Positions 32,226 through 50,429 of a stretch of 64,000 nucleotides of DNA are shown piece after piece. Source of the DNA: Sulfurisphaera javensis. Lineage in GTDB: Archaea > Thermoproteota > Thermoprotei_A > Sulfolobales > Sulfolobaceae. Positions within the stretch are counted from its first letter, which is position 1, and each line of letters starts with the position of its first letter. Under the pieces are notes generated by a model. That model saw only the letters and a program-made list of their open reading frames with translations, searched no databases and was not told the origin of the DNA. Made by a program: the position numbers and the translations under genes. Where the stretch lies: positions 2,169,812-2,233,811 of the forward strand of contig NZ_AP031322.1 of NCBI RefSeq assembly GCF_041154675.1, given 5' to 3'.

Positions 32226-32248
<23 letters not shown>

Positions 32249-33944
32249 GTACAATCACCTGTTTTAATCTTCCTCCTGGTGGTAAAGTTGGTAAAGCTAA
32301 TTCTTCCTTGTCTACTGGTATTCTTATAACAGCTGGAATATTTTCCTTCATTGCAGTTTTTAGAGATTTTTCGATTTCTTCATAGGAAGTTGCATTAAAG
32401 CCTAATGCACCAAACGCTTCAGCTAGTTTAACGAAGTCTGGTGAAGGTCCGTAATCTACTCCAACTATTCTATTCCCGAAGAATAGGTCTTGTACTTGTC
32501 TAACTAGTCCTAACGTTCTATTATCAAATACTACTGAAATTATTGGGATATGTTCATCAACAGCTGTTGCCAGATTATTACCAGTCATAAGGAACGAACC
32601 ATCACCATCTAAATCTACTACAACTTTATCTGGCTTAGCAAGTTTAGCTCCCATAGCAGCTGGCAAACCAAATCCCATAGTTCCCATTCCGGTTGAGGAT
32701 AGGAATGTTCTAGGTTCTAATACTTCCCAGAAAACTTCAGCCCACATTTGATGTTGTCCTACACCAGTTGTTACAATAGCGTCTCTAGGAATAGTATTTC
32801 TTATAGTCTTTAATATCTTCCATGGCTTTAATTTATTTGGTTCATCATAGTAATAGAACTGAGAATAATATTCTTTATATTCTTTTACTCTCTTTATCCA
32901 AGCACTATGATCATTCTTTTTACCAACTTCGTATATTGCTTTCATTAATTCTCTTAATAGTATTTTAGCGTTACCAATTAGGTTAACATCAACTTTAATT
33001 GCTCTTTCTCCATCTGAGGGGTCTATATTAATCATTATGAATTTCTTTCTTGTTTCAATCATTTCATCATATGATGTAAATGTTCTGTCACTAAATCTTG
33101 CTCCTATTACTAACATCGCATCGGATTCTAAAGCTGCCATGGAGGCTTCTGCTCTACCATAGTATCCCATAGGTCCGAAATATAGTGGATGATCATGTGG
33201 TATTGCTGACTTACCTGGGAATGTTGATATAATTGGGACGTGTAGATATTCAGCTAATTCTAATACTTCTTGGGTTGCATTTGACCATACTACTCCTGTA
33301 CCTACTAAAATTATTGGTCTTTCAGCGTTTACTAATATTTCAGCCGCTTTCTTTAGCTTTTGTCTATCAATTATTGTGGGAAGTTCTTTATAGCCTTTGA
33401 CCATTGGTTTCTCGGGCCATTTAACTTCTTCTACTTTTTCATAGAATATATCTCTAGGAATATCAACTACTACTGGCCCAGGTCTTCCAGTTGTCGCTAT
33501 ATAGAACGCATTTTTTATCCATATAGGTATTTCTTCTAGTTTCTTTATCTCTACAACATATTTAGTTATATGTTCAAACACTCCCATTGCATCTGCTTCT
33601 TGGAATGCCATTTTTCCTATAGATCCTCTAGGCACTTGTCCAGTGATTGCAATAACTGGTGAGGAGTCCCAATATGCCGTAATTAATCCGGTTACTAAGT
33701 TAGTTGCTCCAGGCCCAGAGGTGGCTGTACATACTCCAGGCACACCAGATGCTCTAGCATAACCATCAGCTGCATGAGCTGCAGCTTGTTCATGTCTCAT
33801 TAGTACATGTCTTAATTCTCCGTTTTGCAAATCTTCAAGGAACGCATCGTATAATTGCATATTCGATAATCTTGGTATACCAAAGATAACTTTTACTCCT
33901 TCTCTTTTTAGAGCATCAATAGTTATTCTAGCCCCAGTCGGCAT
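32226..33944 (-). CDS. ilvB: Acetolactate synthase large subunit
   Basis: A 572-residue thiamine diphosphate enzyme. The N-terminal domain has the catalytic glutamate in MRHEQAAAHAADGYARASG, the FAD-like middle domain follows, and the ThDP/magnesium motif is DLDGDGSFLMTGNNLATAV. It condenses pyruvate to acetolactate, or pyruvate with 2-oxobutyrate. The ATG at 33944 has GAGGTG 8 nt upstream. It is the first structural gene of ilvB-ilvN-ilvC and has an unusually long upstream region with small reading frames. Confidence 0.96.
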
Positions 33945-43477: not shown

Positions 43478-44041
43478 CACTTTCCCTTCTTTTATTTGAA
43501 TTATTCCTAAATCTTTTAGGAAATATATTTCTTTTCTTATATTATCTCTACTATTTCTTGTTTTATGAGATAATATATCAATTATTTCCTTTAGTGACAA
43601 CTCTCCATACTCCTTAAGTAATTGTATTATTTCTTCGCTTAATCCTTTGATTTTTTCTTCTATTATTTTACCTTCTATTATTCTAAATAAATAAATTTTA
43701 TCACTTATGTTCATCTTGTAAAGATTTTGATCTATTTTCTCGATCTCTATAACTGGTATTCCTAGGTTTAATCTTTTAATTGAAGTGACTATTAAGAAAT
43801 TTGGAGGTATTTCTGATTCATCATCTGCTTCAAAAACAATATTTTCTGATTTTTCATTACATTTCATGGTAAAGTTAATGTCATAAGGATAAAATTCCCA
43901 TTTAATTTTGTCAAAATTAAATATACATATATCTTTGCCTTTTTTAAAAAGGTAATCTGCAATGTTTAACACTAAGACCAACTTTGGAAGATAATAATAA
44001 CTTTTTATTAATCGTTTCGCAGTTGTAAGCTCCTCAAACAC
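43445..44041 (-). CDS. Unrecognised protein with C-terminal winged-helix-like region
   Basis: A 198-residue protein. The last 70 residues ([22 protein letters not shown], then [20 protein letters not shown]) have the helix-turn-helix and wing pattern of a small DNA-binding domain. The N-terminal 120 residues are of mixed alpha/beta type with a hydrophobic first helix region ([14 protein letters not shown]) and no motif I know. It starts at GTG 44041, 60 bp from hisC, divergently, so it could be a local regulator of the his operon; that is inference from position. Confidence 0.65.
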
Positions 44042-44062
44042 TCATTATAATTTGACAGTAAA

Positions 44063-44071
44063 GTTTATTTA
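44063..44071 (+). promoter_or_regulatory. TATA box of the his operon
   Basis: GTTTATTTA lies about 35 bp before the proposed ATT start of hisC (44102), predicting transcription from around 44094 and a leader of only several bases. Confidence 0.5.
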
Positions 44072-44101
44072 CTTTTCCTCATCAAATAAGTAGGGTTTCT
44101 T

Positions 44102-45175
44102 ATTGCACCAACCGCTGATGTCAAAAGCCTCATATATCCATGGTTAATTGAAGCAGAAGAGTATAGTTTTGATGATATAAATGAAGGTATAAGACTTCAT
44201 TTAAATGAATCTCCTTATCCACCACCAGATTTTATAATTGAGGAAGTTAAGAAATATCTTCACTTAGGTAATAGATATCAACATCCTTCTTTAACTGAAA
44301 GACTAAGAGAATTAATGGCAGAATATAATAAAGTAGAGCCTAAGAACGTATATCCTACACCAGGTGGGGATGGGGCACTAAGGGCTATTTTTTATAATCT
44401 TGCACAAGTAGGAGATAAGGTTGTGTTGAATAATCCTTCGTATAGTATGTATAAAGTCTATACTTCAGTTAGAGGTTTAAAGGCTATAAAAGTGAATCTC
44501 AAAGAGGATGGAAACTGGTGGAAAATGGATTTTGATAAATTTTTGGAAGAAGCAAAAGATGCTAGGCTAGTAGTTATAGATGATCCTAACAACCCTACTG
44601 GATCACCAATGTTAAAAGCCGAAGAAGAAAAGATAAAGGCATTAGCTGAGACTGTTAAGGGGTTTGTCCTTATAGATGAAGCTTATTATGAATTTTCTGG
44701 TTATTCCGCAGTCAAACTTATTGAAAAATATCCTAACCTTATGATAGTTAGGACTTTAAGTAAGGCTTTCTCTTTAGCTTCCTTTAGAGTAGGATATTTA
44801 ATTGCGAATGAAGAAATAGTAAAAAATCTTATGAAAGGTTCAACACCATTTGATATTTCTTTACCTGGATTAATTGCTGGAATAACTGCCTTAGAAAATC
44901 CCTCATATGTAAAGGATGTAGTAAAAGAAATTACTAAGAATCGTGAATATTTATTCAAAGGATTAACTAAACTAGGTCTTAAAGTTTATAATTCCCTTAC
45001 GAATTTCCTATTTGTTAAAGATGAAAGGGAGTTATTGACTCCATTACTAAATAAAGGTATAGCAATTAGGAAGCCATTATCTGGATATTATAGAATAAGT
45101 GTTGGAACAAAGGAACAGATAGATACCCTATTAAACTATTTGGGTGAGATTATTGAAAATCGCAATTCCAAATAA
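44102..45175 (+). CDS. hisC: Histidinol-phosphate aminotransferase, start codon ATT
   Basis: About 357 residues if read from ATT 44102. The N-terminal region ([36 protein letters not shown]) is conserved in family members and clearly coding, yet the frame between the TAA at 44087 and ATG 44315 has no ATG, GTG or TTG. The PLP lysine is in [16 protein letters not shown]. It transaminates imidazoleacetol phosphate to histidinol phosphate. It heads the nine-gene operon. Beginning at ATG 44315 would remove 71 conserved residues. A mutated or unusual start codon is the simplest reading. Confidence 0.85.
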
Positions 45176-46010
45176 AGGTAGACTAAAAGATCCAGTATTA
45201 CAGTTTTTATACTCAGTTGGTGTAAAAGGCAACTTCTCAGATGATAGAGCACTAATCATTCCTACAAATTGGGAAGGAGTTCAATTAGTTATGGTGAGGA
45301 CAGAAGATATCCCTAGCATTGTAGAATCTGGTGCTTCAGAAATCGGAATTACGGGACACGATTATGTTTTAGAATCAAATGCCGATGTTGAAGAATTAAT
45401 CAAATTAGACTTTGGCAAATCTAAGATAGTTCTGGCAGTTCCAGTAAGCTGGAATATTGATAGAGTTGAAGAAATAAAACATGAAATTAGAATAGCTACA
45501 AAATATTATAACATTGCGAAACAATACCTAGAAAAGAAAAACCTCAAGGCTAAAATTGTGAAAATAAGCGGTGCTGCTGAAGTAATGCCATCGTTAGGTG
45601 CTGCCGATGCAATTATTGATGTGATGAGTACTGGAACAACGCTAAAGTTACATGGATTAAAACCTATTGATGTTATTCTCGAAAGCAGTGCAGTTGTAAT
45701 AGCAAATAGAAACTGGGTTAAGAGTGAAGAGGCAGACAAAATTAATCTTCTGTTAACAATGATGAAAGGCGCACTAATGGCAAGAAACAAGAAAATGGTG
45801 TTTATGAACGTACCAGATGACAAACTAGATAAAGTGATTTCTTCCTTACCAGCTATGCTTTCTCCTACGCTTTCGAAATTAGCTAGAAGTGATGCATGGG
45901 AAGTTATAACTGTGGTAGATGAAGATTTATTACCAGAAGTTATTGCTAAAGTTAAGGCTAATGGAGCTATGGATATTGTTGTTGTTGATATTGAAAAAGT
46001 GGTGAAGTGA
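45153..46010 (+). CDS. hisG: ATP phosphoribosyltransferase (long form)
   Basis: A 285-residue long-form HisG, including the C-terminal regulatory ACT-like domain (about 210-285), so no HisZ is needed. The start [15 protein letters not shown] and the PRPP site [17 protein letters not shown] are typical. TTG 45153 is favoured over GTG 45144 because GGTGAG lies 4 nt before it. It catalyses the first, feedback-controlled step of histidine synthesis. It begins inside the end of hisC. Confidence 0.94.
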
Positions 46011-46702
46011 TGATAAAAATTATTCCGAGTATAGATATTAGTGAAGGGAAGGCAGTAAAAAGAATTAAAGGAATAAGAGGAACTGGTTTGATATTGGGAA
46101 ACCCTATCCAAATAGCTTACAAAATCTATGAAGAGGGATATAATTATTTACACGTTGTGGATTTAGATTCTGCTGAAGAATTAGGAAATAATGAGGAGAT
46201 AATAAAAGAAATTTGTAATATAGGGTTTAGATGGGTCCAAGTTGGCGGTGGCATAAGAGACGTTAATAAAGCTGAAAGGCTAATTAGTTATGATTGCTCA
46301 GCTTTAGTAATTTCAACTCTTCCAGTTAAAAAACCAAAGGAATACAAAAATCTGGAGGAAAAGATTGGCAAAGATAAAATCTTACTTTCAGTTGATTACA
46401 ATTCTTCTGGATATATTTTAATTAGAGGATGGAGAGAGAAATCTATTAGAGTAATTGATTTTATACTCTCTTTTGATGCATTAGGTTATATTTTCACTTA
46501 CGTAGAGAATGAAGGTACTAGAAGAGGAATTGACCCTAATGTAAAAAATTATATTCTAAAAATCAATAATATCAAAGAGTATGCTGGGGGAATTGGTTCA
46601 ATAGAGGATTTATATAAGTTAAAAGAGTATGGTTTTAACTATGCAATAATTGGTATGAGCTTTTATAAAGGTCCTCTAAGGGGAGTTAAATATGTCTACT
46701 AG
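46010..46702 (+). CDS. hisA: Phosphoribosylformimino-5-aminoimidazole carboxamide ribotide isomerase
   Basis: A 230-residue TIM barrel. [18 protein letters not shown] carries the catalytic aspartate of the first strand, VQVGGGIRD forms a phosphate loop, and [11 protein letters not shown] holds the region of the second catalytic acid. ATG 46010 is preferred over GTG 46007; GGTGA lies 4 nt upstream. It opens the ribose ring in the fourth step of the pathway. The start overlaps the hisG stop by one base. The sequence is fairly diverged, as in other Sulfolobales. Confidence 0.9.
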
Positions 46703-47276
46703 AAGTGTGAGAAAAATAAGAGAAACCAAAGAAACTAAGGTTGAACTTCATCTTGATATAGATAAAAAAGGAGAGGTCAAAGTGTCAACTCCCGTTAATT
46801 TCTTTAATCACATGCTTTCAACACTTTTCTATTACATGAACTCCACTGCAATGCTATTGGCTGAGGACAAACAAGGATATGATGATCATCATATAGTAGA
46901 AGATGTTGCAATAACTTTGGGAGAGGCTTTTAAAGAAGTTTTAGGAGATAAGAAAGGGATTAGACGTTTCTCCCATCAAATAATTCCAATGGATGAAGCT
47001 TTAGTCTTAGTTGCTGTTGATATCTCCGGAAGAGGTGTAAGTAATATTGAATTAAACTTAAACAGAGAAGATATAGGAGGATTAGCTACTGAAAATATAT
47101 TTCACTTCTTCCAGTCATTTTCATACAACTCTGGTGTAAATCTTCACATTCTTCAACTTAGAGGTTATAATACTCATCACATTATTGAAGCTTCTTTCAA
47201 AGGTTTAGGTTTTGCGTTATATGAGGCTACTAGAATAGTTTATGAAGAGACGTTTAGTTTGAAGGGATCTTTATGA
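46692..47276 (+). CDS. hisB: Imidazoleglycerol-phosphate dehydratase
   Basis: A 194-residue monofunctional dehydratase. Metal ligands occur in the repeats [22 protein letters not shown] and, in the second half, [15 protein letters not shown]. No histidinol-phosphatase domain is fused, unlike enterobacterial HisB. It overlaps hisA by 11 nt and hisF by 4 nt. It dehydrates imidazoleglycerol phosphate to the acetol form used by HisC. Confidence 0.95.
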
Positions 47277-48022
47277 CTACAAAGAGAATTATAGCTTGTT
47301 TGGATGTAAAGAACGGAAGGGTAGTAAAGGGAGTCAATTTTCTTAATCTTAAGGATAAAGGAGATCCTGTAGAATTAGCCTCAAGATATGAAGACGAAGG
47401 GGCAGATGAAATAGTATTTTTAGATATCGCTGCAACAGTTGAGGGTAGAAGAACATTATTAGAAGTGATTAAAAATACAGCAAGCGTATTGTCAATACCC
47501 TTAACTGTTGGTGGTGGTATAAGGACAATAGATGATGTCTCAAGGATTTTAGGAAATGGTGCTGATAAAGTTAGCATAAATACTGCCGCGGTGGAAAACA
47601 AAAGAATAATTTCAGAAGCTTCAGAGCAGTTCGGTGCTCAAGCTGTAGTTGTTGCTATTGATGCTAAAAGAGTAAATAATGACTTCATTGTATTCACAAG
47701 ATCTGGAACTTATAATACTGGACTAAATGCGATAAGTTGGGCTAAGGAAGTTGAACAGTTGGGTGCTGGAGAAATTCTATTAACTAGTATTGACAAAGAT
47801 GGAACAAGGGAAGGATATGATATTGAATTAACAGAAAAAGTAAGCAAATCCGTTAATATACCAGTAATAGCAAGTGGCGGAGCTGGAAAGATGGAGCATT
47901 TTTATGAGGTTTTAAAAGTAGCAGATGCAGCTTTAGCTGCTGGAATTTTTCATGATGGTATAATTCGTATACCCGATTTAAAGAAATATTTGTTAAGTAA
48001 GGGTGTTGAGGTGAGAATATGA
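47273..48022 (+). CDS. hisF: Imidazole glycerol phosphate synthase, cyclase subunit
   Basis: A 249-residue TIM barrel with [16 protein letters not shown] (catalytic first aspartate), [10 protein letters not shown] and [15 protein letters not shown] (second aspartate). It joins ammonia from HisH to the pathway intermediate, forming imidazole glycerol phosphate and the purine precursor AICAR. ATG 47273 overlaps the hisB stop. Sequence and length are typical. Confidence 0.96.
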
Positions 48023-49203
48023 TAAAGAGAGAATTACCCAAAGATAGACCTAATGATTTTTCAAAAATTATTCCAGACGTAGAAAAAATAATAAATTATG
48101 TTAAGACAAAAGGAGATGAAGCAATCTTTGAATTGGAAGAGAAATTTGACAAAGTTAAGCTTACTTCATTAAAATTAAACAATATAGAAGAATTAGCTTC
48201 TCAAGTTTCTGAAGATTTGAAAAAGTCCATAGATATAATTTATTCTCAAATTTATGAATTTAATAATACAATTAAACCTCCAAACATGATTGGAGGCAGT
48301 TTTAATGGTGTAGAATATGGGGTACTATGGAGAAGTATTGAAAAGGTTGGCATTTACGTACCTGGCGGAGATAAAGCTTATCCATCAACATTGTTAATGG
48401 CTGGTGTTCCAGCTATAGTTGCTGGAGTCAAAGAAATATACGTTTCATCTCCTCCTAATAAGATAAACCCAGTTATTGCTTATATTTCTCTTAAATTAAA
48501 CGTAAAAGAGGTTTATACTATTGGTGGTGCACAAGCGATAGCTGCAATGGCGTATGGAACTCAAACAGTAAAAAAAGTTGATAAAATAGTTGGTCCAGGT
48601 AATATATACGTTCAAGCGGCAAAGTACTTAGTTAGTAGTGATGTTGGAATTGATGGAATTGAAGGTCCTACAGAACTAGTAATTATAGCAGATGAATCAG
48701 CAAATCCGAACAATATAATTCTAGATTTAAGAGCACAAGCAGAACATGGCAGATTAACATTCTTAGTTTTATTAACAACTTCAGATAAGTTAATTGAAAT
48801 AGTAACAAGAGAACTTGATAAAGATGAAAATACTTACTTTGTATTGAAAGTTAATAGTATTGATGAAGCGATTGATATTGCTAATGAAGTTGCACCAGAG
48901 CATCTTTCACTTCAAGTTGAAAATGCTAATGAATATTTAATGAAAGTTAAAAATGCTGGTGCAATAACTTTAGGAAGTACTCCACCAGCATTAATTGATT
49001 ATTCTGCTGGTCCAAATCATATTTTACCAACAAATTCATGGGCAAAAATAAGAGGTGGAGTATCTGTTTATGATTATTTAAAGATGATTATGTACGCTTC
49101 AGCTAAAACTCCAGATAAAAAAGTTATTGAAGCGTCTAAAATACTAGCTAAATATGAAGGTTTTAATTATCACGCAGATAGCATAGGTGTTAGGTATGAG
49201 TAG
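48019..49203 (+). CDS. hisD: Histidinol dehydrogenase
   Basis: A 394-residue zinc enzyme that oxidises histidinol to histidine in two NAD-dependent steps. Visible blocks are [18 protein letters not shown], the [15 protein letters not shown] nucleotide region, [15 protein letters not shown], and the catalytic/zinc segment [16 protein letters not shown] with [10 protein letters not shown]. It overlaps both hisF (4 nt) and hisE (8 nt). It is somewhat shorter than bacterial HisD (about 430). Confidence 0.96.
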
Positions 49204-49480
49204 TGATGTTCTTGATACTTTATATTCAATAATTATGGATAGAATAAATACTAGAAAAGAAGGTAGTTATACTGTTAAATTATTAGAAAAAGGAAAACCG
49301 TATGTAGCTAGAAAAGTAGGGGAAGAAGCAACAGAAGTAATAGTAGCTTCCTTAAGTGAAGGGAGAGAAAGATTTATAAGCGAAGTTGCAGATTTGATTT
49401 ATCATCTTTTTGTACTAATGGCTATAGAAGGAGTAAAACCAGAGGAAGTTTACGAAGAATTAAAGAGGAGGATGAAGTAA
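49196..49480 (+). CDS. hisE: Phosphoribosyl-ATP pyrophosphatase
   Basis: A 94-residue all-helical MazG-like enzyme with KVGEEATEVIVASLSEG and SEVADLIYHLFVLMAIEG holding the metal-binding acids. It makes phosphoribosyl-AMP in the second step. ATG 49196 is selected because AGGTG lies 6 nt upstream; GTG 49187 would add three residues. HisE and HisI are separate genes here, rather than fused as in many bacteria. Confidence 0.94.
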   Translation: MSSDVLDTLYSIIMDRINTRKEGSYTVKLLEKGKPYVARKVGEEATEVIVASLSEGRERFISEVADLIYHLFVLMAIEGVKPEEVYEELKRRMK

Positions 49481-50066
49481 TGAAAGCGACTGTCATAAAT
49501 TATGGCGTGGGGAATTTATTTAGTATAAAAGCAGGATTAGAAAGAGAAGGATTCAATGTTATTATATCCTTCTTTCCTCAAGGAGATGAAGATGTAATAG
49601 TCTTACCTGGAGTAGGAGCATTCTCTGCAGTTGCTTCTTATTTAAACTCTTTGAAAGGCAAGTTTGAAGAGTTAAGAGAAAGAGGAACAAAGTTTCTTGG
49701 GGTATGTTTAGGTATGCAAGTCATGTTTGAGGAAGGCACAGAAGGAGGAATAAGTAAAGGATTAGGATGGTTTAAAGGAAAAGTTGATAGAATAAATGCA
49801 AATGTTAAACTACCTCATATAGGTTGGGATAAAATATATGTTAAAAATGACCCTTGTGGATTAACTGAAGGAATTGATGGAAAATATGTTTATTATGTTC
49901 ATAGTTACGTTGCTTATACAGATAATTATATTGCCTACAGTGATTATGGCGTTAGATATCCAGCAATAGTTTGTAATGATTTCGCTGTAGGAACACAATT
50001 TCACCCAGAGAAAAGTAGTAATACTGGAAAAATATTTTTAAGGAATTTCTATCAGTGGGTTAAAAG

Positions 50067-50070
<4 letters not shown>
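49480..50070 (+). CDS. hisH: Imidazole glycerol phosphate synthase, glutaminase subunit
   Basis: A 196-residue class I glutamine amidotransferase. The nucleophile cysteine is in FLGVCLGMQVMFE and the His-Glu pair in GTQFHPEKSS. It feeds ammonia through the HisF barrel. The start has the strong site GAGGAGG 7 nt upstream, inside the end of hisE. It overlaps hisI by 4 nt. Confidence 0.95.

Positions 50071-50429
<359 letters not shown>

Follow-up and report, generated by a model that had tools for sequence, protein, structure and literature searches.

The head of the histidine operon of Sulfurisphaera javensis raises a simple question: how is the first gene, hisC, translated if its frame has no standard start codon where the protein begins? 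In the window (the whole stretch of DNA analysed, 64,000 nucleotides of the forward strand of NZ_AP031322.1, a single-contig genome of 2.57 Mb), the hisC frame opens after a TAA at 44087-44089, and its first ATG, GTG or TTG is ATG 44315, from which the open reading frame listing counts 286 amino acids. An earlier note on this DNA had drawn attention to the gap and had placed the beginning of conserved coding at about 44102. Both statements are borne out: reading of the window confirms that no standard start precedes 44315, and relatives align with the protein from residue 1 at 44102, so the frame is coding far upstream of that ATG. Read from 44102, the protein matches NCBIfam TIGR01141 (hisC) from residue 24 on with 311.9 bits (cut-off 276.55 bits), and by this match its product is a histidinol-phosphate transaminase. 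The features at the centre of the question are as follows.

44102..45175, + strand: hisC coding frame, -1 relative to the leader described below (open reading frame, alignment, TIGR01141)
44102..44104, + strand: ATT, the first codon of the hisC frame and the -1 codon of the leader start, in 41/41 loci; proposed landing site of the initiator tRNA, or a non-canonical start
45143..45148, + strand: GGTGAG at the end of hisC, probable Shine-Dalgarno sequence of hisG (Gly351 in a single codon; role inferred)
45153..46010, + strand: hisG, TTG start, overlapping hisC (TIGR00070, 212.8 bits)
46007..50429, + strand: rest of the operon, hisA, hisB, hisF, hisD, hisE, hisH and hisI (open reading frames, reading, order in relatives)

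The operon order is thus hisC-G-A-B-F-D-E-H-I; hisC and hisG were named by profile search, and the other genes by reading and from the same gene order in relatives. The comparison covers 41 loci with hisC and hisG: 30 from Sulfolobaceae, one from a Sulfolobaceae-like contig (L035) and ten from genus g13 of the sister family f3. L036 and L037 are the same sequences as the loci of genomes G018 and G004 and were counted once only. A hisC match was found in all 31 family genomes, with ATT at the same place in 30, the window genome included. The exception is G008, which has a lone hisC with an ordinary ATG; hisD was not found in that genome (91% complete). The L035 contig (NZ_BBDM01000001.1) is labelled Vulcanisaeta sp. 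JCM 14467 and carries an operon of Sulfolobaceae type; it groups with Sulfolobaceae in the HisC tree and is probably mislabelled or mixed.

The earlier note had suggested looking at the codon at 44102 in relatives, and the result is uniform: all 41 loci have ATT there. This codon opens a conserved block.

44102..44113, + strand: conserved block ATTGCACCAACC, with ATTGCA(C/T) invariant (comparison of 41 loci)

The full 12-mer is present in 27 of the 41 loci. Its first six positions, ATTGCA, are identical in all 41, and position 7 is C in 31 and T in ten. In the 27 sequences with the full 12-mer, hisC codons 2-4 each use a single codon throughout, while 26 of the other 27 invariant HisC residues with four-fold degenerate codons use three or four; the sole such residue outside the block with a single codon is Gly351 (GGT), which falls in the probable hisG Shine-Dalgarno sequence. 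A usable canonical start at most 9 nt upstream of ATT occurs in one locus (L129, with an ATG two codons before); the other 40 have no standard start at ATT or within 9 nt upstream of it. From 9 nt upstream to codon 31, no canonical start is present in 24 of the 41 loci, or in 25 counting L133, where a GTG in this stretch is cut off from hisC by a stop; in the remaining loci, downstream canonical starts are scattered in position. Six loci (L034, L127, L128, L130, L135 and L136) have a stop in the hisC frame directly before ATT. Canonical in-frame starts at least 15 nt further upstream occur in 12 of the 30 Sulfolobaceae loci, and are expected to precede the transcript start predicted below.

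Among the loci examined, the block is present only where hisC is followed by hisG, as far as these sequences go. hisG lies directly behind hisC in all 41 block loci. In f3, 14 of 18 genomes had a hisC match, and the four outside g13 gave five more distant hisC-like loci without the block (L137-L141). No hisG was found in the examined stretch around these five. A canonical start lies close to the conserved region in four of them; L137, the remaining one, is truncated by a contig end. Thirteen loci from other families or from G008 (L142-L148, L150-L155) have no same-strand hisG behind hisC, and all have canonical starts. Among 80 hisC loci from the database, only in L035 and L050 is the stretch from the upstream stop to residue 31 free of canonical start codons. 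This is a crude test: the block-bearing L036 and L037 pass it, L050 is cut by a contig end, and L035 is already counted above.

Read one base on, the block has a different meaning. In all 41 loci it forms a mini-ORF of TTG, a histidine codon (CAY) and then an in-frame stop, with hisC in the -1 frame relative to it.

44103..44147, + strand: leader mini-ORF TTG CAC CAA CCG ... TAA, 14 codons with His at codon 2 (TTG CAY and stop in 41/41)
44106..44108, + strand: leader histidine codon CAC, the proposed sensor (hungry codon)

The histidine codon is CAC in 31 loci and CAT in ten, and no other codon occurs; at least four changes between the two are placed on the HisC tree (a quick tree with some unsure branches). 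HisC residue 3, which shares its bases with this codon, is P in 28 loci, S in six, Y in four, and Q, H and L in one each, with at least seven changes on the same tree, some of whose branches are unsure. The leader is 3-6 codons long in 31 loci, 7-14 in eight, 17 in L129 and 24 in L133, and encodes peptides such as MHQPM*, MHQPT*, MHQP*, MHPQET*, MHH*, MHL* and MHI*. In the genus of the window it runs for 14 codons, unlike most relatives. The window leader also has a second histidine codon, CAT 44139-44141, two codons before its stop. Taken together, these patterns argue that the head of the his operon very probably carries a translated mini-ORF with a codon for the operon's own amino acid. Reinitiation after the leader was rejected as a general route into hisC: the position of the leader stop varies (3 to 24 codons) and no conserved hisC start lies beside it.

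The signals upstream place the block close to the predicted 5' end of the mRNA.

44060..44070, + strand: BRE/TATA-like promoter element AAAGTTTATTT (scan for AAAnYTTWWWW-like sites)
44092..44095, + strand: AGGG, a possible weak Shine-Dalgarno sequence of the leader or the 5' end of the transcript (GGG conserved)

The centre of AAAGTTTATTT lies 35 nt before ATT, in agreement with the earlier claim that ATT 44102 sits just after the probable transcript start. All 31 loci of Sulfolobaceae type have a TATA-like site whose centre lies 35-39 nt ahead of ATT (in a crude scan in which ties favour about 36), and in the ten f3 loci one is found 33-57 nt before it. The distance from TATA to transcript start is 26-27 nt, which, applied to the position of the TATA-like site, predicts a transcript start 9-10 nt before ATT. 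The distance from the end of the GGG to ATT is 6-8 nt in 39 of the 41 loci, including f3 loci whose TATA-like site is some 50 nt away, so the GGG may be a weak Shine-Dalgarno sequence. Predicted pairing with the 16S tail (GGATCACCTCA) was compared with that of 500 shuffles per sequence. For the his leader, 114 shuffles paired as well in the window (not significant), 3 in L012 and 19 in L130; the corresponding numbers are 34 for the hisG GGTGAG, 52 for a trp leader (L158), 171 for a shikimate-operon leader (L208) and 0 for ilvB. We detected no folding signal from -10 to +90 (mean z-score -0.19 for the 41 his loci against mononucleotide shuffles), and an RNA hairpin or pseudoknot was accordingly set aside as a candidate. 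Rfam covariance models, covering the T-box and other known RNA elements, found nothing in window positions 43900-44500 at E values up to 1.

A second design is seen in G057, of family f9, the sole one of eight f9 genomes with a hisC match at E 1e-40. Here hisC heads a hisCGABFD operon (7 kb read), and the leader reads GGTG-CGCTCC-ATG CGC CAA CAC GCC TGA (L149, 2227-2244). This hisC again lies in the -1 frame of the leader. Behind its upstream stop, the frame stays free of standard starts until 49 codons in, and ATT is absent from its head. The design rests on one genome. Set against the trp leader of L167 (TTG CGC CAA TGG AGT TAA), the G057 leader is, to judge from the two sequences, built on the same scaffold with the cognate codon exchanged.

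The trp leaders themselves were read in 18 of 20 loci taken (L158-L167, L171-L177 and L180). The first of the trp genes is trpB; these genes were named by reading, except trpC, which was identified by PF00218. All 18 leaders consist of GGTG (AGGG in L166), a start codon, NNC, CAA and TGG, and most encode M-x-Q-W-stop. The start is TTG in 12 and ATG in four, and the two with ATA have an ATG one codon earlier; the stop follows TGG directly in 14, one codon later in three and five codons later in L162. The ATG of trpB overlaps the leader TGG in the -1 frame. GTG as the leader start was discarded in favour of GGTG as the Shine-Dalgarno sequence with a TTG or ATG start, because the f3 copy, L166, has retained ATG at that place.

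The shikimate operon is headed by a transketolase gene (tkt), and its members, identified by Pfam in the own genome, are chorismate mutase, DAHP synthase, dehydroquinate synthase, shikimate dehydrogenase, chorismate synthase, GHMP kinase, EPSP synthase and dehydroquinase. C-CAA-TGG stands behind a start codon in 30 of 30 tkt loci (L198-L227), and also in L229 near position 1107; the leader mostly continues for 10-13 codons. Its frame tends to hold a Phe or Leu codon and a Tyr codon further on, which follow from the tkt frame. Across trp and tkt, all 48 loci have their start codon three or four codons ahead of TGG, with TTG, ATG and (once) GTG exchanged. The ilv operon was considered as a fourth case, with a negative outcome.

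32226..33944, - strand: ilvB, negative control, with an ordinary ATG, GGTG upstream and no +1-frame start within 30 nt

In a set of 18 ilvB genes (17 genomes and the window), GGTG lies within 20 nt in 17, and 15 lack a +1-frame start within 30 nt; the three that have one show nothing in common.

We consider it reasonably likely, from the arrangement of these sequences, that the his operon opens with a recoding switch that senses histidine, in which the ribosome slips by -1 when His-tRNA is short. Ribosomes would start the leader at UUG. With ample His-tRNA the histidine codon would be read at once, and the ribosome would run to the nearby stop and leave, so that hisC would stay untranslated. 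With scarce His-tRNA the ribosome would wait at codon 2, its A site empty and the initiator tRNA still on UUG. Because UUG and the overlapping AUU would each offer this tRNA (anticodon CAU) two of three pairs, it could slip back by one base. The next codon would then be GCA, HisC would be made as M-A-P-T..., and hisG and the remaining genes would follow through the gene overlap. On an AUG start the initiator would be held too tightly for a slip; this would account for the invariant TTG preceded by A in 41/41 loci. In trp, shikimate and the G057 his operon, the slip is proposed to occur at C-CAA, just before the cognate codon, by Gln-tRNA: re-pairing from CAA to CCA would again keep two of three pairs (the bases are invariant, the pairing is argued). 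The exchange of TTG, ATG and GTG in trp and tkt would fit a slip by Gln-tRNA instead of by the initiator. By position and identity, the leader's cognate codon is in each case the candidate slow A-site codon: His in his, and Trp in trp and shikimate.

In favour of the switch are the invariant A-TTG-CA and the restriction to C or T at the histidine wobble position, while hisC residue 3 varies. Also in its favour are the single-codon use at hisC codons 2-4, the joint occurrence of block and hisG, the startless hisC of G057, the cognate codon exchanged for Trp in the trp and shikimate leaders, and the lack of such a leader at ilvB. Several observations count against it. The trp and tkt genes have an ATG of their own overlapping TGG, so CCAATGG could partly be start-codon context, where a single additional G suffices for TGG. 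In Sulfolobaceae the his block resembles the trp block (TTGCACCAA), and the reason could be a shared motif and not the reading of codons. Pairing of AGGG, GGTG or GGGG with 16S is weak, and no shift-stimulating structure was found. Some leaders are long (14 codons in the window's genus, and those of L129 and L133), L129 has its upstream ATG, and the G057 design comes from a single genome. The wider proposition is that Sulfolobales run at least three amino-acid operons (his, trp and shikimate) by starvation-driven recoding, each with a cognate mini-ORF and the first gene in the -1 frame, shortage of charged tRNA pushing the ribosome (in hisC, the initiator tRNA) into the gene. To this we give an even chance.

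An unlikely but substantial alternative is that AUU itself starts HisC at low efficiency, the overlapping UUG mini-ORF merely competing and the block being tuned for weak initiation. This is close to the earlier suggestion of an ATT start on a nearly leaderless mRNA. The constancy of ATT, its place directly behind a stop in six loci and the absence of any other start nearby speak for it, and the position that the suggestion gave to ATT stands. What it overlooked is that the conserved unit is ATTGCAY, whose +1 frame holds a TTG start and a histidine codon; initiation on ATT by itself therefore probably does not account for everything. An AUU start leaves GCA and the following pyrimidine unexplained, and likewise the histidine codon. 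Under starvation, moreover, access to AUU would be obstructed by a ribosome halted at UUG, which is the wrong sign. In addition, the G057 hisC is startless without an ATT, so plain AUU initiation cannot be the general answer.

A smaller chance is given to the block as a nucleic-acid motif, either an operator near the transcript start or an RNA-binding site, for an aromatic/histidine regulator, with the codons coincidental. The likeness of the his, trp and tkt blocks in Sulfolobaceae and the location of the block at the expected transcript start would agree with this, but it is precisely the cognate codon that sets the invariant cores apart (ATTGCAY versus CCAATGG), CCAA is lost in distant his blocks, the wobble changes are synonymous, and hisC would still need some start. 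Pattern searches also argue against a regulon motif, which was rejected. In the own genome the 12-mer has one perfect place, at hisC, and eight places with one mismatch (five in total for the reversed control). Across 31 genomes, a 21-base pattern with up to three mismatches gave 167 matches against 110 for the reversed control, an excess made up largely of the hisC matches and of a repeat in G020, G028 and G016. With at most one mismatch, this longer his pattern occurs, among the matches listed (28 genomes, without G001-G003), exactly once and at hisC in 24 genomes, and not in the other four. The repeat consists of scattered copies of AGGGTTTTCATTTCACCAACC or close sequences, and is probably a mobile-element end or other repeat. 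A GGUG-CACC pairing, an idea taken from trp, does not fit the his block by eye.

Translation from ATG 44315 or another internal codon is very improbable: this ATG is the first standard start of the hisC frame, but beginning there would remove 71 conserved residues, including IYPWL and an 11-residue stretch, and the internal canonical codons of relatives are scattered in position; ATG 44315 was ruled out on the upstream conservation. A mutated start weakening histidine synthesis or a base error in this strain, both raised in the earlier note, are refuted by the 41 loci that carry the same ATT, this genome included, and with nothing found in their favour retain virtually no chance.

If the proposed switch is real, gene finders that insist on a standard start will have annotated hisC wrongly, and the prediction for three operons can be tested with a simple reporter; the family has culturable, genetically tractable members. 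To our knowledge, translational amino-acid sensing in archaea is poorly known. At the level of titles and abstract openings, the literature yielded no recognised work on AUU or hisC starts, leader peptides or ribosome-mediated attenuation in Sulfolobus, and no archaeal precedent; so far as that literature shows, the switch would have no predecessor, either as a natural hungry-codon frameshift or as archaeal control of an amino-acid operon by a leader peptide.

Several known systems share parts of this logic. In enteric his, trp and phe attenuation, a short leader ORF with cognate codons senses charged tRNA, and the likeness to the hisL type lies in a short leader ORF with the codon of the product (TTG CAY in 41/41). 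The differences are one histidine codon and not a run, a leader that overlaps the first gene, no hairpins found, and an archaeal host; the hisL-type arrangement, a leader ending before the first gene with alternative hairpins and a terminator, is not what these loci present. infC and other genes start with AUU, and here too AUU is the apparent first codon kept by selection (41/41); the his loci differ in the cognate mini-ORF in the +1 frame, and in G057, which lacks AUU. Programmed -1 frameshifting has reportedly been found for a Sulfolobus fucosidase, in the same direction and the same archaeal group, though it is said to be neither regulated by an amino acid nor placed at a start codon. Excerpts of a 2016 review remark that frameshifting possibilities in Sulfolobus merit investigation (PMC5009743).

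The hungry-codon frameshifting of Gallant and others, whose starvation effect was studied in E. coli, likewise involves a shift at a codon with a scarce aminoacyl-tRNA. In the excerpts of that review, trans-frame proteins specific for starvation are held to be possible but "no examples are known" (PMC5009743); here a whole biosynthetic pathway seems to depend on such a shift. Closest in logic is the autoregulatory frameshift of RF2 (prfB), described in the same excerpts, in which a short zero-frame ORF is followed by the remainder in another frame, and a slow A-site codon senses shortage of the product (PMC5009743). RF2 senses a stop codon and shifts +1 (at codon 26 in E. coli), whereas the his leader is proposed to sense a sense codon for the operon's own amino acid and to shift -1, with the initiator tRNA itself making the slip.
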